Below are positions 19,904 through 40,220 of a DNA stretch of 42,650 bases, in pieces. Under the pieces are notes generated by a model. It searched no databases. It worked only from the letters and a program-made list of their open reading frames with translations, and was not told the origin of the DNA. Origin of the DNA: Halanaerobium saccharolyticum (GTDB lineage: Bacteria > Bacillota > Halanaerobiia > Halanaerobiales > Halanaerobiaceae); contig NZ_QLME01000028.1 of NCBI RefSeq assembly GCF_003259895.1, positions 390 to 43,039 on the forward strand. Direction: 5' to 3'. A program made the translations under genes and the position numbers. The first letter of the stretch is position 1, and each line of letters starts with the position of its first letter.

Positions 19904-19959
19904 TAAACAAAGTAAAAACATAATAAATTTTAATAGGAAAATGCCTCATCATATCTGAT

Positions 19960-20141
19960 GAGGTAGAGGCGCGAATTTAGAATAGTATTTTTCAACTTCA
20001 GCTTAAACCGCTGTTGGGAAAGAAAGGCTGATTCGCCGAAGTTTTCAGCCAGGGTTTAATGGCTGTCTGCTGGGTCTGTATAAAAAATATACAGGACTGT
20101 CATTAGTAGTTTAATCCAGACTGCTGATGTTGAGCTATCTC
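19960..20141 (+). promoter_or_regulatory. Lysine riboswitch (L box)
   Basis: The conserved L-box elements appear in order: GAGGTAGAGGCGCG at the 5' side, GGGAAAGAAAGGCTGATTCG followed by CCGAAG, then GCTGGGTCTGT, ACAGGACTGTCA and the 3' P1 strand CTATCTC (20135-20141), which pairs with GAGGTAG (19960-19966). A short hairpin CCTCATC/GATGAGG (19944-19963) competes for the 5' P1 strand. High lysine should favour the downstream terminator and switch off lysine and diaminopimelate synthesis. Confidence 0.93.
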
Positions 20142-20178
20142 AAAAGATGGAAGAGGTGATTTCTCTGATTAAGTATTT

Positions 20179-20286: not shown

Positions 20287-21519
20287 ATGAAAACAATAAC
20301 TATACCTGAAATTAAAATTAGAGAAACAGTAAAAGAATATGGAACTCCGTTTCACATTTATGATGAGCAGACTATTGTTGATCGTTTAAACAATTTGATT
20401 TCTTCCTTTAGCTGGGCGGATTTTAAAGAGTTCTTTGCCATTAAGGCAAATCCAAATCCACATGTTTTAAAAATAATGAAGGAAAACAACTGTGGGGTTG
20501 ATGCAGCAACTGTAACCGAAATTAAACTGGCAGAAATGGCCGGTTTTAGTGGAGAAGATATAATGTTCACCTCCAATCTGACTACAATTGATGCCTACAG
20601 GTATGCAGTAGATAAAGGGTGTATTATAAATATTGACTGGGCAGCAGATATTTATGAGCTATTTGAAAATGAGATCATACCGGAAAATATTTGTTTCAGA
20701 TTAAACCCCGGCTCAATTGAAAATGAAATAATGGGAGACTCCAAAGAATCAAAATTTGGATCAACTGCCGAACAGATTAAAGAGGCAGTAAGTTTTCTGG
20801 CTGAACAGGGAATTAAGTCAATTGGACTGCACACAATGGTAGTTTCTAATGAAAACAATGCTCAAATTTTTGGTGAGTATACCGAGATGCTATTTGAATT
20901 TGCCAGAGAGATTATTAATGAGTATAAGATTGAGATTGATTTTATTAATATCGGCGGGGGAGTTGGAATCCCCTATCAACCAGAAGACTTTGTTGATCTA
21001 GATGCAATATCAGGGGCGGTAAATGAAGCCTACGACAAAGTTTTAAAGGCAAATGGACTGCAGCCCAAGATTTTTATGGAATCTGGCCGCTACATCACTG
21101 GCGAATCAGGTTATTTAATTACAGAAGTGATTAAGAAAAAAGAAACATACAAAAAATATCTGGGTGTAGATGCTTCGATGTCAGATTTAATGAGACCGGC
21201 AATGTATAGAAGCTATCACCATTTAACCAATATTGATGCAGAAGCTCGCGGGGAAGAAAAATCAAAAGAATATGATGTAGTCGGCTCCCTCTGTGAAAAT
21301 AATGATAAATTTGCAATTGACCGCCGACTTCCTAAAAGTAAGGTGGAAGATCTGGTTGTGATTCATGATACAGGAGCTCACGGACATTCAATGGGTTTCA
21401 ATTATAATGGAATGCTCAGAAACGGAGAATTTTTGTACACTACTGATGGTAAAGTGAAGCAGATCAGACGTGATGAAACTTTTGAAGATTATACAACTAC
21501 TGTAATAGGAGGCTATTAA
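20287..21519 (+). CDS. lysA: Diaminopimelate decarboxylase
   Basis: 410-residue PLP enzyme making lysine from meso-diaminopimelate. The fold-III PLP lysine lies in EFFAIKANPNPH (about residue 54), GLHTMVVSNEN and FINIGGGVGIPY follow, and the C-terminal domain has VVGSLCENNDKFA with the active-site Cys and DTGAHGHSMGFNYNG. It is the first gene after the L box. An ATG with GGAG upstream marks the start. The stop is 1 bp from dapA, whose ribosome site lies inside lysA, so translation is coupled. Confidence 0.93.
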   Translation: MKTITIPEIKIRETVKEYGTPFHIYDEQTIVDRLNNLISSFSWADFKEFFAIKANPNPHVLKIMKENNCGVDAATVTEIKLAEMAGFSGEDIMFTSNLTTIDAYRYAVDKGCIINIDWAADIYELFENEIIPENICFRLNPGSIENEIMGDSKESKFGSTAEQIKEAVSFLAEQGIKSIGLHTMVVSNENNAQIFGEYTEMLFEFAREIINEYKIEIDFINIGGGVGIPYQPEDFVDLDAISGAVNEAYDKVLKANGLQPKIFMESGRYITGESGYLITEVIKKKETYKKYLGVDASMSDLMRPAMYRSYHHLTNIDAEARGEEKSKEYDVVGSLCENNDKFAIDRRLPKSKVEDLVVIHDTGAHGHSMGFNYNGMLRNGEFLYTTDGKVKQIRRDETFEDYTTTVIGGY

Positions 21520-25079: not shown

Positions 25080-25124
25080 TACCGGGTACTTGGATTAAAT
25101 TTCCAGTTACCCGGTATTTTTTTT
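25080..25124 (+). terminator. Terminator of the lysine cluster
   Basis: Perfect 9-bp arms TACCGGGTA (25080-25088) and TACCCGGTA (25108-25116) with a run of eight T (25117-25124). It overlaps the last bases of the convergent recombinase gene. Confidence 0.88.
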
Positions 25125-26061
25125 AAAAATCAGGCATCTCATCAATAGCATTTTTCTTTTCTTCTGTATCAACATGAGTATAAATCTGGGTTGTAGATAG
25201 ATTGGCATGACCTAAAAGGTCCTGCAGTACTTTGATGTCTTTAGTCTGACGATAAAGAGTAGAAGCAAAAGTATGGCGCAGTTTATGAGGGGTTATTTTC
25301 TCAGCTCTGCTTAAACCCGCTTTTTTTGCATATTTTTTGACAAAAAGCTGAATAGTCCTCGGATTAATTCTTCTGCCGTGACGGGAAATAAAAACTGCCT
25401 GACGGGCATCATTTTCTTTAATTTCAATTGAATTTCTTTCCCGCATATAACGCCTGATTGCCAGAACCACATCATGGTGCAGCGGCACATAACGTTCCTT
25501 TTTACCCTTACCATAAAATTTAATGGAGCCATCTTCAAAATCAATATTATCAAAATCAAGATTGACTAGTTCAGAGATGCGGAGACCTGCATATAAAAAG
25601 AGCTTAACTATTGCCAGATCCCGAAGGCGGTTGATTCCACCATGTTCATCAATAGCCTGGATGAACTTTTGAGCTTCCTTTAATTTTAAATAAATTGGCT
25701 CCAGTCTGGTATCTGTTTTACTGCTTTCTATTGCCTCAGCCGGATTTTTAGTGACAATTCCATAATGAAGCAGATACTTGTAAAAAGAACGGACAGCAAA
25801 GAGTTTTCTGTTTCTGGTAACCGCCTTATTATCATTAACAATTACTGCATCAGCCAGAAACTCTGAGATATCAAGTCGATCAACCTCATCTGGTTTAAAA
25901 CCCTCTTTAAAATCAAGTTCTTCCAGCAGATATTTATGTAATTGATGTAGATCACTATCATATTCCTTAATTGTTAGTTTCGAATAACCTTTTTCTACAT
26001 CCAGATATTTTTTGAATTTATTTACAGCCTGTAAAAAATTAAGTTGAGAAATTTTAATCAC
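25123..26061 (-). CDS. Xer-type tyrosine recombinase
   Basis: 312-residue site-specific recombinase. An N-terminal core-binding domain (FKKYLDVEKGYSKLTIKEY) precedes the catalytic domain, which has Arg in LFLYAGLRISELVNL, Lys in YGKGKKERYVPL, HKLRHTFA, LGHANLSTT and nucleophile Tyr in IYTHV. This is the Xer/chromosome-dimer type, but context alone does not show whether it is the housekeeping XerC/D. The GTG start at 26061 sits inside AAAGGAAGTGATT, which matches an extended ribosome site, so initiation a few codons later is possible. It stands alone, convergent with the lysine cluster. Confidence 0.87.
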   Translation of the reverse strand: MIKISQLNFLQAVNKFKKYLDVEKGYSKLTIKEYDSDLHQLHKYLLEELDFKEGFKPDEVDRLDISEFLADAVIVNDNKAVTRNRKLFAVRSFYKYLLHYGIVTKNPAEAIESSKTDTRLEPIYLKLKEAQKFIQAIDEHGGINRLRDLAIVKLFLYAGLRISELVNLDFDNIDFEDGSIKFYGKGKKERYVPLHHDVVLAIRRYMRERNSIEIKENDARQAVFISRHGRRINPRTIQLFVKKYAKKAGLSRAEKITPHKLRHTFASTLYRQTKDIKVLQDLLGHANLSTTQIYTHVDTEEKKNAIDEMPDF

Positions 26062-31793: not shown

Positions 31794-32378
31794 ATGAAAG
31801 CATTAATTTTAAATGGAGAAGAAGTAGATGGCCTTTCTTTAAAGCATATTTCAAAAAGTATTAAAGAAGAATTGAGAAGCTGTGATTTTGAAGTTGAAGA
31901 AATATTATTAAAAGAAAAAGAGATTGCAGACTGCCTGGGACTTTTTAAATGCTGGGTTAAAACTCCAGGAATCTGTATAATTGATGATTATGGAAGAAAA
32001 ACTGCAGCTAAATTAATAAATTCTGAACTTGTAGTTTTTCTGACACCAGTAACATTTGGCAGTTATTCTTATCAACTCAAAAAAGCTTTAGATAGAATGA
32101 TCCCTCTGATTTCTCCTTATTTCAAAAAAATTGAAGGAGAATTTCATCACAGAAAACGTTATTCAAAATATCCATCCATTTTAGCTGTCGGGGTAATGGA
32201 AAAGATTAACCAGGCCCAGAGTAAAATTTTTAAAGAACTGGTGAAAAGAAACTCTATCAACTTTCATTCTGCATATTGTGAAACTGAAGTTTTTGAGGTG
32301 GCTGATGATTTTAATAATAAAAAAATTAAAAATCTTGTTAAAGTGATTTCTGAAAAAGTAGGTGAACAGAATGATTAA
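31794..32378 (+). CDS. Flavodoxin-fold NAD(P)H-dependent FMN reductase-like protein
   Basis: 194 residues with the order of a flavodoxin-like reductase: MKALILNGE at strand 1, ELVVFLTPVTFGSYSYQLKKALDR (the flavin-loop pattern P-x-Y/F-x-x-S/G-x-x-x-x-K-x-x-x-D-R) and ILAVGVME. A Cys-containing segment CLGLFKCWVKTPGIC (residues of about 48-62) resembles the C-x-x-C-x-x-C-type insert of iron-sulfur flavoproteins, but spacing is atypical. It overlaps the next gene by 8 bp. The reduced substrate is unknown. Confidence 0.75.
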   Translation: MKALILNGEEVDGLSLKHISKSIKEELRSCDFEVEEILLKEKEIADCLGLFKCWVKTPGICIIDDYGRKTAAKLINSELVVFLTPVTFGSYSYQLKKALDRMIPLISPYFKKIEGEFHHRKRYSKYPSILAVGVMEKINQAQSKIFKELVKRNSINFHSAYCETEVFEVADDFNNKKIKNLVKVISEKVGEQND

Positions 32379-33083
32379 ATTTAAAAAAGCAGTTTTGCTA
32401 ATCGGAAGTCCAAAAGGTAAAGACAGTTCATCAGCCAGTTTAGGTAGTTATCTGCTTTCTAAGGTTGAAGAATATGATGTTTCAACCGAGAAGGGTTATC
32501 TTCATTCTGAAATAAATACTGAAACTAAAAGAATTCAGTTTTTAGAAAAGATAGCAGAAACAGATATTATAATTCTTGCGGCACCACTTTATGTAGATAC
32601 TCTTCCGGCAAAAGTGATCAGGGCTTTGAGCCTAATCGCAGAAAATAGAAAGAATATAAATAATGATCATTCTGATTTGAAACGGATAAGAGCTTTGCTG
32701 TAATAGTCAACTGTGGTTTTCCTGAAGCTGAGCAAAATAAAACAGCCCTTAAAGTTTATGAGCAGTTTGCTAAAGAAGCCGGGTTTAAATATCTTGGTGG
32801 AATATCGATTGGAATGGGAGGTGTAGTCAGCGGTAGATCTTTATTAGAAATGGGCGGAATAGCCAGTAATTTAATTAAAGGTCTTGAGCGGGCAGCTGAT
32901 GATATTGTAAGAAGTCATAGATTTTCAGACTCGGTTATTGAAAAAACTTCTAAATCAATGATTTCACCCAGATGGCTTTATACTTTAATCGGTAATTTTT
33001 CCTGGAGATTTCAGGCCTTTCAAAATGGAGTCTACAGGAAAATGAATGATAAACCCTACCAGAAGGTGAAACATAATGATTGA
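32371..33083 (+). pseudogene. Frameshifted NAD(P)H-dependent oxidoreductase-like gene
   Basis: ATG at 32371 follows GGTGA and reads a flavodoxin-like start (AVLLIGSPKGKDSSSASLGS, IIILAAPLYVDTLPAKV). It stops at 32701-32703, while the adjacent frame continues as FAVIVNCGFPEAEQNKTALK through MGGVVSGRSLLEMGGIASNL to the stop at 33081-33083. Adding one T to the TTT at 32694-32696 would join both halves into one protein of about 237 residues. It is a one-base deletion, either genuine or a base-calling error in a homopolymer. Confidence 0.8.
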
Positions 33084-33352: not shown

Positions 33353-34438
33353 ATGAGGTTGAAGTTAAACAAAAGAAAGAATCTGATCTGTGTTAGTTTT
33401 GATTATGATAAAGTTGTGATTAGAAAAATCAATTCAATTCCGGGGAGCCGCTGGAATCCAGAAAGAAAGTACTGGACATTTCAAAATAACTCTACTAACT
33501 TAGCCCTTTTTTTAGAAATGTTTAAGGGTGAGTATTTAATTTTTGAATCTAAAATTAAAGATTTTGCTGGCCCAGAATTAATTGCTGACTATTTTAATCA
33601 TTATTATCTGCCACAATTTGAAAAGAAGCTGAAGTTAAAAGACTATTCTAGAAATTCAATAAAAGCTTATCTTAACCACAATAAATCCTTTATAAAATAT
33701 ATTCAAAAAGATTTATTTGGGATTAAAATGGCCGATGTTAATGATTATGTATTGTATATTTTAGAGGATTTAAACAATACTCATTCTTATGCCAACCAGT
33801 TTATCAGTGCTTTTAAAACTTTTAATAATTTAATTTTACAACTTGATGGAATTAACAATAAATTGCTGCGCCCAAAAAAGAAAAAGAAGCTGCCCAAGGT
33901 TTTAAATAAGAGAGAAGTAAAGGAGATTATTGCTTCTGTTGATAATTTAAAACATCAATTAATATTAATTTTGACTTATTCTGCTGGTCTGAGAGTTAGT
34001 GAAGTTGTGAGATTGAAGATATCTGATATTGACTCTGATAGAATGCTGATATATGTACGTAACAGTAAGGGTTATAAAGATAGGTATACATTGCTGTCCC
34101 AAAACGTTTTAACTAAGCTTAAACTATATGTAAAGGCTTTTCAGATACAAAAATACGATAAGCAGTGGCTTTTCCCCGGTCAGAATAAGGATCGGCATCT
34201 ATCAAAGCGAAGTGCGCAGAAGGTTTTTAAGCGTGCCTGCAAGAAAGCCGGGATAAATAAAGAGGTTGGAATTCACTCGCTGAGACATTCTTTTGCTACT
34301 CATTTATTGGAGCAGGGAGTTGATCTGAGATATATCCAGAATTTACTGGGGCATAAAAGTTCTACCACAACTGAGATCTATACTCATGTGAGCAATAAGA
34401 ATTTGATTGAGATTACTAATCCATTTGATAGTTTATAG
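33353..34438 (+). CDS. Tyrosine recombinase with HARP-like N-terminal module, candidate integron integrase
   Basis: 361 residues. Residues 1-65 resemble the HARP-type module (IRKINSIPGSRWNPERKYWTF), known from SMARCAL1-like proteins that bind branched or single-stranded DNA. Residues of about 75-170 are a core-binding domain and 180-350 the catalytic domain: R214 in YSAGLRVSE, K239 in NSKGYKDR, H308 and R311 in HSLRHSFA, H334 in LGHKSSTTT, Y343 in EIYTHV. The tail NPFDSL recalls the SPLD-x-L tail of integron integrases, but the extra segment that marks classical IntI between the Lys and HxxR motifs is absent. The stop lies 79 bp before the first cassette core, in the same direction as the array. 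The ribosome site is weak and distant. Confidence 0.85.
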   Translation: MRLKLNKRKNLICVSFDYDKVVIRKINSIPGSRWNPERKYWTFQNNSTNLALFLEMFKGEYLIFESKIKDFAGPELIADYFNHYYLPQFEKKLKLKDYSRNSIKAYLNHNKSFIKYIQKDLFGIKMADVNDYVLYILEDLNNTHSYANQFISAFKTFNNLILQLDGINNKLLRPKKKKKLPKVLNKREVKEIIASVDNLKHQLILILTYSAGLRVSEVVRLKISDIDSDRMLIYVRNSKGYKDRYTLLSQNVLTKLKLYVKAFQIQKYDKQWLFPGQNKDRHLSKRSAQKVFKRACKKAGINKEVGIHSLRHSFATHLLEQGVDLRYIQNLLGHKSSTTTEIYTHVSNKNLIEITNPFDSL

Positions 34439-34523
34439 AATGAAGATCTAAACGAAATAACAGTCGTGAAGATTTGCTATTATTGTCTTAATGAACTTTT
34501 ATTCGCAAAGAAGTGAGTTATAC
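34439..34523 (+). other. Candidate attI (primary recombination site)
   Basis: This stretch joins the recombinase stop to the first cassette core GTTATAC (34517-34523). It has no attC-like palindrome, as expected of an attI. It contains ATAACAGTCGT (34457-34467), resembling the TAACAGTC-RTATAAC stretches at the R'' end of several attC-like sites. Placement at the 3' end of the recombinase gene differs from the usual position at the 5' end. Confidence 0.5.
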
Positions 34524-34848
34524 GCAATAATAACTGAACATCAGCAAATAAGAGAAAAAGATAAAAGAAGGGTTGGATCATCGCAAACTGGCATGAACTA
34601 GCTCCTGCAAATGAAGGAAATAATAATTGTAAATTTTCAGCGGCTTTACCAATTAACCTGGATGATTATAATCTACAAAGGTATTTACATATATCAGAAG
34701 CTAAATTAGTCACTGTTTGATTTTCACGCACTTCGTGAAGATGTAATATAGTACAAAGTTAATGAACTTATTTGCTGGTTAAGGAAGAAGAATGATATTT
34801 CATTAAACTGAAGTAAAAAATACTTTTAACGCGGCAAGTTATTACAGC
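34518..34848 (+). other. Cassette 1 body: no evident gene
   Basis: About 330 bp without a convincing reading frame on either strand. It contains a hairpin TTCACG (34723-34728)/CGTGAA (34734-34739) and aligns along its length with cassette 3 (35403-35736), with many scattered substitutions and small indels that follow no codon pattern. It may encode a structured RNA or a promoter. Confidence 0.6.
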
Positions 34849-34980
34849 GTATAACATGGGATTGGCGTCATGCCTTCTGTCATAAAGCTTGCAGGTTAAC
34901 CAATTACGGATACGGAAAAGCAAGCTTTACGCCAGTTCCTGCGGAATCAGGCACGAGCGCAAATCCCAGGGACGTTATAT
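34849..34980 (+). repeat. attC-like site 1
   Basis: R'' GTATAAC (34849-34855), then TGGGATT, a middle stem AAGCTTGC/GCAAGCTT, then AATCCCA, GGGAC and R' GTTATAT (34974-34980). The spacer between R and the inner box is one base on the R'' side and five on the R' side, so the fold is asymmetric as in attC. It is nearly identical to sites 4, 5 and 6 apart from the central loop. Confidence 0.85.
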
Positions 34981-35280
34981 GACATTATAGCAAAAGTTAC
35001 TGCAGCTAAAAAGATCAGAAAAAAGGTTTGGTTATTGCAGGATGATATTTTTATACTTTCTCTGGTGAAAGTAAATAGAAACTGAAAGGTTTTTAACTTA
35101 ACTAAGTGCTCTAAGAAAAGAAAACCGTGATCAATTTTATGAGCGGTTACAGCACTATCTCCAAAACTTCAGACTGATGTTTAAAGTTTTTTGCGGGCAG
35201 GCCGTTGCAAAAAAGGAGATAGAGGTTCGAAGTTTTGAAGATAAATGAGAAATAATAGAGTCGATGTTGCTATAACAGTC
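34981..35280 (+). other. Cassette 2 body: no evident gene, several inverted repeats
   Basis: There is no reading frame of note. AAAACTTC (about 35163-35170) pairs with GAAGTTTT (about 35230-35237), and TATCTCC just before the first arm pairs with GGAGATA (about 35215-35221). A separate short hairpin CTTTC/GAAAG lies near 35057-35072. This suggests a structured RNA, not a protein. Confidence 0.5.
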
Positions 35281-35408
35281 ATATAACATGGGATTAACGG
35301 CATGCCCTCTGGCACAAAGTTAGCACCTGAACAATTGCGGATATGAAAGCTAACTTTGCCCCAGGTCTGTGGACACCGGGTACACCGCGAATCCCAGGGA
35401 CGTTATAT
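35281..35408 (+). repeat. attC-like site 2 (divergent)
   Basis: R'' ATATAAC (35281-35287) and R' GTTATAT (35402-35408) with the inner boxes TGGGATT and AATCCCA conserved. The middle stem differs from the common type (AAAGTTAGC/GCTAACTTT in place of AAGCTTGC/GCAAGCTT) yet is still self-complementary, so the structure is kept while the sequence changes. Confidence 0.85.
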
Positions 35409-35736
35409 GCAATAATAACTGAACATCAGCAAATAAGAGAAAGAGATAAGAGAAGGGTTGAATAATCGCAAACTGAGATGAACTAACTCCTGCAAATGAA
35501 GAAAATAATAACTGCAAGCTTCAAATGGTCTTAACAATAGACTTGGGCAATTATAATTTACAAAATTATTTACATATATCAGAAGGTAAATTAGTCACTG
35601 ATTGATCTTCACGTACTTCGTGAAGATTTAATATAGTACAGAATTCATGAACCTATTTGCTGGTTAAGGAAGAATTTTGATATTTCATTAAGTTGAAGCA
35701 GAAAGAAAAACTTTTTACGTGGCAAGTTATTACAGC
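35409..35736 (+). other. Cassette 3 body: diverged duplicate of cassette 1, no evident gene
   Basis: It aligns with cassette 1 from the first bases to the end. The conserved hairpin is CTTCACG (35607-35613)/CGTGAAG (35619-35625); its closing pair is C-G here and U-G in cassette 1, a compatible change. No shared reading frame is kept. The two copies carry different attC-like sites. Confidence 0.6.
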
Positions 35737-35917
35737 ATATAACAGACCATTGGCGCTACTAGGTATAAAATTGAGCAGCAAGACATCCGTGCCCTTCGGG
35801 ACATGGCTTTTGTCACATCTCTTGCAGCAGCTTAAACAAAAAATGCTGATGAAAGGCAAGAGATGCGCCAACCTAAAGAACAGGACAGCCACGTCGCAAA
35901 TGCTCGGGACGTTAGAC
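35737..35917 (+). repeat. attC-like site 3 (long, divergent)
   Basis: R'' ATATAAC (35737-35743) and R' GTTAGAC (35911-35917) bound a longer site of about 180 bp with arms CATTGGCGC and GCAAATG. R' matches the integron consensus GTTRRRY exactly. R'' and R' do not match each other because R' belongs to cassette 4. Further stems such as CTCTTGC/GCAAGAG and CCCTTCGGG lie inside. Confidence 0.8.
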
Positions 35918-35941
35918 GAAAGAACACTAAAGGAGGATTTT

Positions 35942-37033
35942 ATGAAATTTGAAAAAGTTCTAACGGATGATCCTATAAAAGAAATGTGGAATAGATTAGA
36001 TATACTCTCTACTATTTCTGGAGCTAAAAAATTCTTGAAAGAAAGAATTAATGAAGACTCAGAGATAAGTGAAGAAATTTTAGAAGATAAAGCAAAAGGA
36101 ATTGCATTTTGTATTAGAAGTGCTCGAGAATTTTTTCAAACAGAGATAGACCACAATATGTCTACAGCTAGCATTTCTTTTTATTATGGAACTTTTAATT
36201 TTTTAAGTGCATTATTATTAGCGGATATTGAAAATAATTATACTTTAAAAGATATTGAAAAATTTTCAAGTTATGGGCATGGATTTAAACTTTTTAATAA
36301 TACTGATGAAGAAAAAATATTAAAAAGAGACAATTTAATTGTTAATTCTAATGGTTTCTTTTATAAATTTTTAAAAGAATTAAATTATGATGAAAACTTA
36401 ATATCTATGCAAGGTAAATATTATTCATTAGAAGAGGTTGAAGAGGAAGAAAAATATAAAATAATTGATATAAAAGAACTTATTTCTAGAATACCTGAAT
36501 TGAGAAATACTTTTATTGAAATTTTTAATGAACAACCATTATATTTAAATTTAAATTGTAGATATAATTTAACTGATCAAGAGCTATTTGTTAAATTTCC
36601 TTTCGACAAAAATTCTCCTTATCTATCAGATGAAGATATCTATCAAATTTTGGATTGGCCAAATGATATTGAGTTATCTCAAAAAATAGAGACTTCAAGG
36701 TTAAAAATTATTACAAGGGACAAAATAAATAAAAATATAATACCTGATAAAAAAGAATTACATAAAAGTGTTTTGTGTTACGATTGTTATATTAAACCTT
36801 TATTGGGTATAGAAGATATATTTTTAATTTACTTTATGTTTTTATATGTGTTAAGTATTTGGACAAGATATAGACCTAATTTATGGAGAGAAATAGTTGA
36901 AGGTAGGTTTGATATATACAGACCCCTTATAACTAAATTTTTAACCTCTTCTGAAAGGATATTACCAAATATTTTTTTAAATAAAATATATAATAGAAGA
37001 TTTTTATTTACCGGACATTCTTATTTGGGTTAA
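35942..37033 (+). CDS. YaaC-like protein (cassette 4)
   Basis: 363 residues from ATG 35942, with AGGAGG (35931-35936) 5 nt upstream. The frame is open further upstream, but only through the attC-like site. The start MWNRLDILSTISGAKKFLKE, the helix with SFYYGTFNFLSALLLAD and the C-terminal YVLSIWTRYRPNLWREIVEG resemble YaaC-like proteins, whose function is unknown. The DNA is very AT-rich with an Asn/Lys/Ile-heavy protein, consistent with foreign origin. It fills one cassette, in array direction. Confidence 0.75.
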   Translation: MKFEKVLTDDPIKEMWNRLDILSTISGAKKFLKERINEDSEISEEILEDKAKGIAFCIRSAREFFQTEIDHNMSTASISFYYGTFNFLSALLLADIENNYTLKDIEKFSSYGHGFKLFNNTDEEKILKRDNLIVNSNGFFYKFLKELNYDENLISMQGKYYSLEEVEEEEKYKIIDIKELISRIPELRNTFIEIFNEQPLYLNLNCRYNLTDQELFVKFPFDKNSPYLSDEDIYQILDWPNDIELSQKIETSRLKIITRDKINKNIIPDKKELHKSVLCYDCYIKPLLGIEDIFLIYFMFLYVLSIWTRYRPNLWREIVEGRFDIYRPLITKFLTSSERILPNIFLNKIYNRRFLFTGHSYLG

Positions 37034-37050
37034 CAGCACAGTGTTCCTTC

Positions 37051-37183
37051 GTCTAACATGGGATTGGCGCCATGCCTTCTGTCATAAAGCTTGCAGATTA
37101 ACCAATCACGGATATGGAAATGCAAGCTTTACGCCAGTTCCTAACGGAACCAGGCACGAGCGCAAATCCCAGGGACGTTATAC
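37051..37183 (+). repeat. attC-like site 4
   Basis: R'' GTCTAAC (37051-37057) matches the start of cassette 4 (GTTAGAC), while R' is GTTATAC (37177-37183), the start of cassette 5. Between them the sequence is nearly the same as site 1. This change of core between neighbouring cassettes is strong evidence for recombination at G^TT. Confidence 0.87.
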
Positions 37184-37739
37184 GACATTAAACTGAGCGA
37201 GTATGTTTTCAATTTGGAAGGAACGAGATGGATTTGTAAAATCCTCTTAGGTAATTCAAGAGCATTAATAATAATTAAATCAGTAATTTTAGATCTTATG
37301 GTTAAGATCAAAATAATTACCGGTTAATCGCTTTTGAAAAATTTTAGATGTAAAGTCTTAATGAGCAAAAAGTGTAAAAAGTTATTGAGCGTTAAAAAAT
37401 ATTTTTAGTAAATCTTTAATGAAGTAAGTTTCATAAAGATAGCAAATTCAATATATCAATGAGAGATACTGCACCATATGGTTATAATTTAATAAAAGAA
37501 AAGAGATAATAAAAGATTTATCCGCCTAACAGTCATAGTCGTGACATTAGGCTGGGTCAAGTGTCTTTATTGCTTAGAAGTTCCGAGATGGATTTATAAA
37601 ATATTCATAACTAAAAAGGAATAATTAAAAGTTTTCTCCTGTAAAATAAAGGTGATTTTTTCTTTTAATTGAATTATTAATTATAGTTTAGAATATTATA
37701 GAATTGAAAAAAATTTAAAGGGGAGAGATATTATTTAAT
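37184..37739 (+). other. Cassette 5 upstream region without gene
   Basis: There are 556 bp with no clear gene. A repeated segment CGAGATGGATTT-TAAAAT occurs at 37224-37242 and 37584-37602, each about 40-47 bp after a core-like sequence. Between them GCCTAAC (37524-37530) and ATTAGGC (37546-37552) form a short inverted repeat that looks like a collapsed recombination site. Two related cassettes may have fused here. Confidence 0.4.
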
Positions 37740-38372
37740 ATGGCAAAAACAAAAAAGATTGATCAAAATAAAATGATGGAAATTTTAGATTGGAGTTATG
37801 ATAAAGCTTTAAACGGATTACCTAGATGTCCTACAGCTCAAGAATTAGCAAATGACTATTTAAGTAAAAAAAATAGTGTAGATGAAGCAGTAAATTCTTT
37901 GATTAAGTGGCAAAATAGTAAATGTGGAACATCTGGTTTTATATCTGGACTAGGAGGAATAATAACATTACCTGTAGCATTACCAGCAAATATTACAAGT
38001 GTTATATATATTCAAATTCGAATGATTGCTGCAATTGCTTACATGGGAAAATATGATCTAAAATCTGATCAAGTGAGGTCATTAGTCTACATATGTTTAT
38101 GTGGAAACTCTGCAAAAGATATCTCTAAAAATATAGGAATTAAATTAGGAACAAAATTATCCAAAAGTGCTATAAATAAAATATCTGGAAAAACATTAAC
38201 AAAGATAAATCAAAAAGTTGGATTTAGACTGGTTACAAAATTTGGCCAAAAAGGTGTAATAAATATGGGTAAAGCTATACCTGTAGTTGGTGGATTAATT
38301 GGAGGCACAATGGATGTAGTAGCTACAAATACTATAGGAAAAGTATCAAAGAAGACATTTATAAATAACTAA
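37740..38372 (+). CDS. EcsC-family protein (cassette 5)
   Basis: 210 residues. The core TSGFISGLGGIITLPVALPA, NITSVIYIQIRMIAAIAYMGKYDL and the Gly-rich end IPVVGGLIGGTMDVVATNTIG match the EcsC family, membrane-associated proteins of unclear role. There is no signal peptide; one or two hydrophobic helices are present. A GGGGAG site lies about 14 nt upstream of the ATG. It has its own terminator. Confidence 0.75.
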   Translation: MAKTKKIDQNKMMEILDWSYDKALNGLPRCPTAQELANDYLSKKNSVDEAVNSLIKWQNSKCGTSGFISGLGGIITLPVALPANITSVIYIQIRMIAAIAYMGKYDLKSDQVRSLVYICLCGNSAKDISKNIGIKLGTKLSKSAINKISGKTLTKINQKVGFRLVTKFGQKGVINMGKAIPVVGGLIGGTMDVVATNTIGKVSKKTFINN

Positions 38373-38387
38373 AAAATAGAAATAATG

Positions 38388-38441
38388 ATACTCGTTAACT
38401 CATTAAATGAATATGTTTAAGAGTTAATGAGTATATTTTTT
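38388..38441 (+). terminator. Terminator inside cassette 5
   Basis: 14-bp arms (38388-38401 and 38421-38434), which pair fully apart from one G-U, are followed by A and six T. It ends the EcsC-like transcript before the cassette's recombination site. Confidence 0.8.
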
Positions 38442-38495
38442 AAGAAATCAAAATAATAAAGAAATAGTAATTAAGAGAGCTGTCGTTTAACAGTC

Positions 38496-38627
38496 GTATA
38501 ACATGGGATTGGCGTCATGCCTTCTGTCATAAAGCTTGCAAAATTCAGCAGCAAGAAATATTACAGCAAGCTTTACGCCAGTTCCTAACGGAATCAGGCA
38601 CAAGCGCAAATCCCAGTAACGTTATAT
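38496..38627 (+). repeat. attC-like site 5
   Basis: R'' GTATAAC (38496-38502) and R' GTTATAT (38621-38627). The outer and middle stems are as in site 1, but the terminal loop sequence differs completely and the usual CCCAGGGAC reads CCCAGTAAC. Variation is confined to loop and spacer, consistent with selection on the fold. Confidence 0.85.
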
Positions 38628-38663
38628 GACATAGGGCTAAAACTATTTGGAGATGAAACTATT

Positions 38664-39368
38664 ATGGATATTTTAAGTAGAATTATTTCTGTTATTTCTT
38701 TATGTGTTGCAATAATAGCAGCTTTATATGTGAAAAAGCAAACAGAAATTAATAAAGATCATCTTACAGAATATAAAAATCAATATATTTTAAAAAACGA
38801 TGTAGTTTTTTCAATTAAATGGGGCACAGATATTCTTGTTCCTAAATCTAAAAGATATATAGAAAACAAAAAACTTCTTGGTAATTCCTCAGTTTATAAA
38901 GATAAAGACGGGATTTTAAAAGAAATAGATGATAGAATAGTTACTTTATCAATAGAAAATATAAGTGAAATAAAGGCAAAGAACTTAGAAATTGAATGGG
39001 AAATTCATATGCCTTCAATTTATAGTTTTATTCATGAAATGGAGTTAGAATTTCAAGAAGATAATGAGATAAAGAAATATGGTTTTAAGACATTAGGAAA
39101 AAAGAATTATAACCAAATAAATTCTTTTGAAAGTAAAAATATACCTGCTTTTTATATTGGCAAAATACCAATTGTTATTTTAAAAATTAACAAGATTTTC
39201 TATCAAAAAGAAGGTGAAACAAATTATAGAGTTGCTAATTGTAAAAATATAAAAGGCAATATTAATTTTAAAGTTCAACATAAAAATGTAGTAGAAGATA
39301 TTAATGAGGATATAATATTAAAAGGTAGCAAAAATGACTGGAATAATTTCAAGAACTTTGATAATTAA
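38664..39368 (+). CDS. Membrane-anchored protein of unknown function (cassette 6)
   Basis: 234 residues. One N-terminal membrane helix (IISVISLCVAIIAALYV, residues of about 7-23) is followed by a soluble region rich in Lys, Ile, Glu and Asn, with beta-strand-like segments such as RIVTLSIENISEIKAKNLEI. I recognise no family. It is alone in its cassette, in array direction, with GGAG about 13 nt upstream of the ATG. Confidence 0.65.
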   Translation: MDILSRIISVISLCVAIIAALYVKKQTEINKDHLTEYKNQYILKNDVVFSIKWGTDILVPKSKRYIENKKLLGNSSVYKDKDGILKEIDDRIVTLSIENISEIKAKNLEIEWEIHMPSIYSFIHEMELEFQEDNEIKKYGFKTLGKKNYNQINSFESKNIPAFYIGKIPIVILKINKIFYQKEGETNYRVANCKNIKGNINFKVQHKNVVEDINEDIILKGSKNDWNNFKNFDN

Positions 39369-39388
39369 TCACTAGACAGCCCTACGTC

Positions 39389-39520
39389 ATATAACATGGG
39401 ATTGGCGTCATGACTTCTGTCATAAAGCTTGCAATTTAACCAATTACGGATATGAAAAAGCAAGCTTTACGCCAGTTCCTGCGGAAACAGTCACGAGCGC
39501 AAATCCCAGGGACGTTATAT
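39389..39520 (+). repeat. attC-like site 6
   Basis: R'' ATATAAC (39389-39395) and R' GTTATAT (39514-39520), nearly identical to site 1. The sequence just before R'' (AGCCCTACGTC) complements the start of cassette 6 beyond the core, with one mismatch over 18 bp. Confidence 0.87.
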
Positions 39521-39568: not shown

Positions 39569-39596
39569 AACAGTGCCATTGACCTTCAGCACTGTT
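39569..39596 (-). terminator. Terminator of the toxin-antitoxin pair
   Basis: Arms AACAGTGC (39569-39576) and GCACTGTT (39589-39596), with a T-rich tail on the minus strand. It overlaps the antitoxin stop codon. Confidence 0.7.
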
Positions 39597-39873
39597 AATT
39601 AAATCTAATTTCAAGTTTTTTACCAAGTGCGTGAGCAACTTTATCAAGAAATTCAACACTTGGATTATAATCATCATTTTCTAGTCTGGAGATAGCAGAT
39701 TGTTTAGTTCCTATTTTATCTGCCAATTCTTTTTGAGTTAAATTATTTTCTATTCTATACCTAATAATTTGTTTTTTTATTTCATACATAACTTTCAATT
39801 TTTCATATTCTTCTTTAACTTCTTCAGATTCAAATAGTTCATTTTTAAGATCTTTATGATCTATAAATTCCAT
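39595..39873 (-). CDS. HigA-type XRE antitoxin (cassette 7)
   Basis: 92 residues with a helix-turn-helix of the Cro/C1 type: YRIENNLTQKELADKIGTKQ, then SAISRLENDDYNPSVEFLDK (residues of about 38-77). It should bind and neutralise the upstream-encoded toxin and repress the operon. It lies 11 bp after the toxin gene, in toxin-first HigBA order, on the strand opposite to the array. Confidence 0.87.
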   Translation of the reverse strand: MEFIDHKDLKNELFESEEVKEEYEKLKVMYEIKKQIIRYRIENNLTQKELADKIGTKQSAISRLENDDYNPSVEFLDKVAHALGKKLEIRFN

Positions 39874-39884
39874 TTTGTTTCACC

Positions 39885-40220
39885 TCACTTGATAGAATTA
39901 AGTCTATTAAGAGCAATATTTATTTCTCTCTGTGGAGTTTTGTTAGATTTCTTCTTAAAGATATGCAAAAGAACAAAGATACCATCCTTATAATTTAAAA
40001 AGAAGACCCTAAATATATTAGAACTATACTTTATTCGTAATTCCCAAAGATCATCATATCCCTTTAACTTTTTAAGATGTGGCATACCAAGAAATAGACC
40101 AAATTCTTCTAGAAGTTCTATTTCTCTTAGAATTTTAGCCTTTTCTTTAGCTGACTGTTCTTTAATAAATTCAATTACTGGAGATTTATTATTTTTTGCA
40201 TAATACTTAATTTTATACAT
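39885..40220 (-). CDS. HigB/RelE-type toxin (cassette 7)
   Basis: 111 residues of the Gp49/HigB-like family of ribosome-dependent mRNA interferases: MPHLKKLKGYDDLWELRI, then FRVFFLNYKDGIFVLLHIFK and the basic KKKSNKTPQREIN tail typical of the fold. The start follows GGAGTGA. A TATAAT on the minus strand (40253-40248) could be its -10 box. Such pairs are common in large integron arrays, where they stabilise the array; that role is inferred here. Confidence 0.87.
   Translation of the reverse strand: MYKIKYYAKNNKSPVIEFIKEQSAKEKAKILREIELLEEFGLFLGMPHLKKLKGYDDLWELRIKYSSNIFRVFFLNYKDGIFVLLHIFKKKSNKTPQREINIALNRLNSIK

Follow-up and report, generated by a model that had tools for sequence, protein, structure and literature searches.

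The window analysed here, a stretch of 42,650 nt (42.65 kb) from the halophilic bacterium Halanaerobium saccharolyticum, carries on its forward strand a gene for a 361 amino acid tyrosine recombinase (33353-34438, +), followed by an attI-like region and an array of six cassettes. Just upstream of the recombinase gene lies a seemingly broken flavodoxin-like reductase frame (32362-33083), and further upstream a lysine riboswitch (RF00168, 98.7 bits; 19956-20145, +) precedes a gene cluster beginning at 20287. Just behind the last attC site, on the opposite strand, is a toxin-antitoxin-like pair composed of a Gp49/HigB-like protein and an HTH protein (39595-40220, -), with transposase genes next to it.

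The attI-like region (34439-34524, +) begins directly behind the recombinase gene and is conserved in that position in many species. Conservation between species extends from the stop of the recombinase gene to a G|TTAT core with the crossover G at 34517, after which the sequences diverge. The region contains two dyad-like motifs. A consensus promoter scan gave no excess over shuffled sequences, and a Pc promoter is therefore not claimed.

The six attC-like sites, all on the forward strand, measure 128-181 nt each and are composed of R'' (NNNTAAC), L'', L' and R' (GTTANNN) boxes. They are site 1 (34849-34980; bottom-strand folding z -6.4), site 2 (35281-35408; z -4.6), site 3 (35737-35917; z -2.9), which is a longer variant and folds poorly, site 4 (37051-37183; z -8.2), site 5 (38496-38627; z -6.7) and site 6 (39389-39520; z -6.8); the bottom strand thus folds in five of the six at z -4.6 to -8.2. 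The site finder, run on both strands of the whole window, returned these six sites alone. An earlier note on this DNA, which dealt with the recombinase gene, had alluded to attC sites; they are present at 34849-39520, outside that gene.

Cassettes 1 (34518-34974, +), 2 (34975-35402, +) and 3 (35403-35911, +) have no evident gene. The first and the third are 85% identical over 300 nt (34517-34816 and 35402-35701), as for a non-coding cassette which was duplicated or repeatedly captured, and the sequences following attI at two other loci (L032, L036) begin in a similar way. Cassette 4 (35912-37177, +) encodes a YaaC-like protein of 363 aa (35942-37033; Pfam PF14175, E 1.5e-29), cassette 5 (37178-38621, +) an EcsC-like protein of 210 aa (37740-38372), and cassette 6 (38622-39514, +) a 234 aa protein of unknown family (38664-39368). 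The EcsC-like protein matches the PADLOC candidate phage-defence family PDC-S29 (E 5.6e-92) and may represent anti-phage cargo. Within cassette 5 is also a small palindrome, GCCTAACAGTCATAGTCGTGACATTAGGC (37524-37553), similar to the R boxes and to the attI-region motif TCGTGA.

The recombinase and its HARP-like module

In Pfam the protein shows a SAM-like core-binding domain at residues 87-163 and the Phage_integrase catalytic domain at 182-348 (E 2.4e-42). The catalytic hexad, which the earlier note had read as complete, is R214 K239 H308 R311 H334 Y343 and is invariant across 50 relatives. The top NCBIfam score is that of XerA_Arch (NF040815; 226.3 bits, above the cut-off of 220), a family entitled "site-specific tyrosine recombinase/integron integrase". 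The integron integrase model TIGR02249 gives 194.6 bits in two pieces, below its cut-off of 265. The best PDB sequence match is to XerA-type recombinases (4a8e, 5hxy); the closest solved full-length fold is that of VchIntIA with attC (2a3v).

Canonical IntI carry the IntI-specific insertion I2, which docks extrahelical bases of attC and thereby blocks the second strand exchange; IntI1 loses its function when I2 is deleted (PMC7790495). When 86 proteins were aligned without use of structures, the stretch matching residues 258-290 of the window recombinase measures 33 aa in this protein, 28-35 in its relatives, 32-39 in Xer and 69-70 in all sixteen canonical IntI. The I2 insertion is therefore absent from the recombinase, in agreement with the earlier note, and in the PDB search only 18 of its residues stand opposite 56 in VchIntIA (2a3v).

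The N-terminal module (residues 1-58; 33353-33526, +) has a b-b-a-b-b-a layout. The earlier note had seen a resemblance to HARP, given as residues 20-45, although the string it quoted sits at 23-43. Pfam by itself is too weak to decide the point in the window protein (PF07443, residues 14-44, E 0.07, 13.1 bits against a gathering threshold of 25; matches at E up to 1 in 10 of 50 relatives), and a family profile is required. With a profile from 28 diverse N-termini, the HARP domain of SMARCAL1 (4o66) ranks first of 177,635 PDB sequences (E 0.0012). AlphaFold2 predicts the module as a confident b-b-a-b-b-a domain (pLDDT 91.7), for which Foldseek finds XPB damage-recognition domains at prob 0.95-0.98 and 4o66 at prob 0.89. 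The VIA-align Z scores are 6.5 for XPB and 4.6 over 46 residues for 4o66, values which alone are no proof of kinship. CASTOR1 and eIF1 stand at the top of, or share, the list of structural matches to this small module, which we take to reflect a common a/b layout. Judged from the family profile, the module is HARP-related by real homology.

The earlier note went further and proposed that the HARP module replaces I2 in the recognition of folded attC. The homology itself speaks for this, as the fold is kin to the structure-specific DNA-binding domains of XPB and SMARCAL1, and so do the gain of annealing-helicase activity by other SNF2 proteins onto which HARP domains were fused (PMC4035279) and the wide occurrence of the module in array-associated recombinases. 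Against it, canonical IntI of Treponema have an alignable HARP-like module together with a full I2 insertion, and one relative of the window recombinase (L110) has neither the module nor a remnant of it, yet stands at the head of an array whose junctions show the cassette-circle signature described below (2/2). A one-for-one substitution is thus doubtful, and HARP is a common yet separable companion of integron-type recombinases, since Treponema IntI carry both elements and L110 carries neither. What is known of SMARCAL1 (PMC4035279) and XPB suggests that the module probably helps to hold branched or hairpin DNA. Two Paenibacillus relatives (L064, L077) were at first candidates for HARP-free proteins and were dropped as evidence because a HARP-like N-terminus was found out of frame with the recombinase core, by frameshift, error or decay. 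In four canonical IntI of the Treponemataceae (L162, L165, L173, L174) the HARP-like N-terminal extension comprises about 60 aa and a linker; we know of no description of it.

Folding of the sites and the signature of cassette circles

Alignment of 26 sites from five loci gave a consensus structure of 36 pairs, in which 96.7% of the cells are paired. The stem shows 27 compensatory (double) changes, compared to 5.7 in shuffles (reached in 0 of 500) and clearly over slid controls, showing a conserved fold of the bottom strand.

Known attC sites are described as having extrahelical bases in common, which steer the choice of strand (PMC2727003). In a canonical comparison set limited to seven Treponema arrays, the L'' arm has two or more single-base bulges in 79 of 80 sites. 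By the identical procedure, two extrahelical bases were found in 0/124 sites beside I2-less recombinases and one in 14/124; a 1x1 mismatch usually takes their place. The missing I2 and its missing ligand, the paired extrahelical bases, match one another. Of the 80 canonical sites, 77 have spacers of equal length on both sides between their R and L boxes, whereas the R' side is longer by 3-4 nt in 93 of 108 Halanaerobiales sites; spacers in sites of the I2-less type measure 1-4 nt on the L'' side and 5-7 nt on the R' side.

Cassettes that circulate after cutting at G|TT should carry an R'' box complementary to their own 5' end, and within an array this end is the R' of the preceding junction. 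Over the three variable bases in fourteen arrays, R'' matches the R' of the preceding junction in 79/104 cases and its own R' in 9/104, and 2000 permutations gave a mean of 19.0 and a maximum of 31 matches; the site finder used for this comparison made no use of R-box pairing. In the window R'' complements the previous R' in 5/5 cases, and site 1 likewise agrees with the attI core (TAC). Among far relatives the counts are 26/47 for the previous junction and 7 for their own R' (permutation maximum 21). This complementarity, read from the boxes, is the signature of circular cassettes.

An Xer-like enzyme exchanging double strands at the G|TTA core, with inverted repeats which serve something else, would accord with the lack of I2 and of extrahelical bases, with the XerA_Arch score of 226.3 bits and with the dyad-like motifs of the attI region. 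Such exchange, however, has no need of the R''-R' complementarity kept in the excised circle (79/104); moreover, the bottom-strand stem is maintained by compensatory changes, and the attI and attC cores have 4-8 bases in common (as few as 4 contiguous ones), all of them right of the crossover, with nothing shared on its left side. We therefore consider this reading improbable. Recombination of folded single strands is, by contrast, very likely the process at work, because the attI and attC cores share so little and the complementarity of the circle has been kept.

Relatives of the recombinase and their arrays

None of 38 Halanaerobiales genomes contains a protein over the cut-off of TIGR02249; in the positive control of this search IntI1, IntI2 and a third IntI scored 410-508 bits. 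Twelve of the 38 genomes contain the attachment pattern AATCCCAGNNACGTTA, in as many as 35 copies; in the reversed control it is almost absent. Ten of these 12 genomes have a homologue of the recombinase (E 1e-25). The exceptions are two Halanaerobium genomes (G011, G013) with few sites and no homologue at E 1e-25 and, conversely, an incomplete genome (G019) with a homologue and no pattern match. In another genome (G014; L017/L025) the recombinase gene is split, apparently by insertion of a transposase, and about 35 pattern matches persist in two large arrays.

From the genome collection 80 relatives of the recombinase were drawn. Downstream of HARP-type relatives the coding strand carries 33 sites in 168 kb, compared to 9 in 324 kb upstream, and for relatives without the module the figures are 25 sites downstream and 3 upstream. 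Relatives heading arrays are found in Halanaerobiales, Paenibacillus, Spirochaetota, Bacteroidota and an altiarchaeon, and the host genera and families of relatives include Halanaerobacter, Paenibacillus, Brucepastera, Altarchaeum, Sediminibacterium and Chitinophagaceae. A 41% relative is encoded on a Chryseobacterium plasmid (L131, NZ_CP041688), with repeated site ends behind it. The position of homologues next to attC arrays, which the earlier note had raised, is thus found across phyla. A scan of viral contigs with a single protein turned up no relative of the recombinase. The Treponema arrays could not be taken as the same I2-less system, most of them belonging to canonical IntI (36 of 118 genomes over the cut-off); the relatives in Brucepastera and in termite-gut Treponema are of the I2-less kind. 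Two small contigs of one genome (C50 and C51 of G000; L003, L004, L006-L008) carry three tandem tyrosine recombinase genes each, like recombinase-trio elements.

In a tree of 86 core domains the sixteen IntI form one clade (100/100) which does not contain the window recombinase. The latter falls within a clade of 53 rows (98/97), which unites every HARP-type I2-less protein with some that have no such module, and Xer is set apart from both (100/100). As the tree separates its clade from both groups, the recombinase is neither an IntI which recently lost I2 nor an ordinary Xer. The earlier note had named as refuting its idea a placement among ordinary phage or Xer integrases devoid of arrays; this did not occur.

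A rival view, in which the cassettes form an orphan cluster (CALIN) that a canonical IntI encoded elsewhere mobilises in trans and the neighbouring recombinase is incidental, would agree with the frequency of CALINs, a few of which are reported in Firmicutes (PMC9024848), and with two other genomes with relatives (G044, G049) which hold both enzymes and whose arrays are ambiguous for this reason, but it is very improbable, given that no IntI passes the cut-off in the 38 Halanaerobiales genomes with the control working, that the conserved attI-like region starts at the end of the recombinase gene in many species, that recombinase and array are associated across phyla with fixed strand and side, and that the sites miss the extrahelical bases used by IntI.

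Proposed mechanism and comparison with known systems

We consider it highly probable, from sequence comparison, that the locus is an integron platform and belongs to a non-IntI lineage, one which uses folded attC without I2. The recombinase (33353-34438) would recognise the adjacent attI core and the attC sites of the cassettes and would itself perform cassette movement, acting on the folded bottom strand. Strand exchange would take place at G|TTA, and promoter-poor cassettes would be captured and shuffled as circles. The asymmetric spacer, rather than extrahelical bases docked by I2, may set the choice of strand, and the HARP-like module would probably aid in holding the branched or hairpin DNA.

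Canonical integrons (class 1, Vibrio, Treponema) likewise have a recombinase gene beside attI, cassettes ending in hairpin-forming attC, a G|TT crossover and an R'' complementing the cassette's own 5' end, and in Treponema the recombinase is also transcribed towards the array (PMC3607928). They differ from the window type in possessing I2 (69-70 aa, against 28-35), in the separate clade of their recombinases, and in attC sites with two extrahelical bases and without the spacer asymmetry. The integrons of archaea (PMC9668308) also join an integrase to attC cassette arrays and are spread across domains; the IntI-specific domain ascribed to their IntI is lacking in the Altiarchaeales relatives found here. 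The HARP domain of SMARCAL1 (4o66) shares sequence profile and b-b-a-b-b-a layout with the module; there it is fused to an SNF2 helicase and here to a tyrosine recombinase. XerA-type recombinases (4a8e, 5hxy; NF040815) are the best PDB sequence match and their NCBIfam cut-off is passed. Xer acts on dif for chromosome dimers. Unlike these enzymes, the window recombinase bears a HARP module and is accompanied by a cassette array, and the same genome keeps its own XerD-like gene (25123-26061).

The view held in the field is that integrases gained single-strand recombination through the acquisition of I2 (PMC7790495). A natural lineage with attC arrays and without I2 or its ligand makes the requirement for I2 directly testable. 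With some reserve, we lean towards regarding the widespread clade beside IntI as a second solution for folded single-stranded attC, in which there would be no I2 helix and no extrahelical bases, strand choice would depend on the spacer and a HARP-type module would serve as an auxiliary DNA clamp. If so, the acquisition of I2 as what allowed integrons to evolve is an incomplete view. We found no description of such an I2-less kind in the open-access journal literature on integrons. The existence of such a lineage would explain why tools demanding the IntI domain report integrons as scarce in Firmicutes, with orphan clusters only (PMC9024848), and would add Halanaerobiales, Paenibacillus, Bacteroidota, Spirochaetota and Altiarchaeota as new reservoirs of cassettes. 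In the array of the Chryseobacterium plasmid, cassette-like genes are accompanied by a reverse transcriptase of the group II intron type, encoded on the opposite strand.
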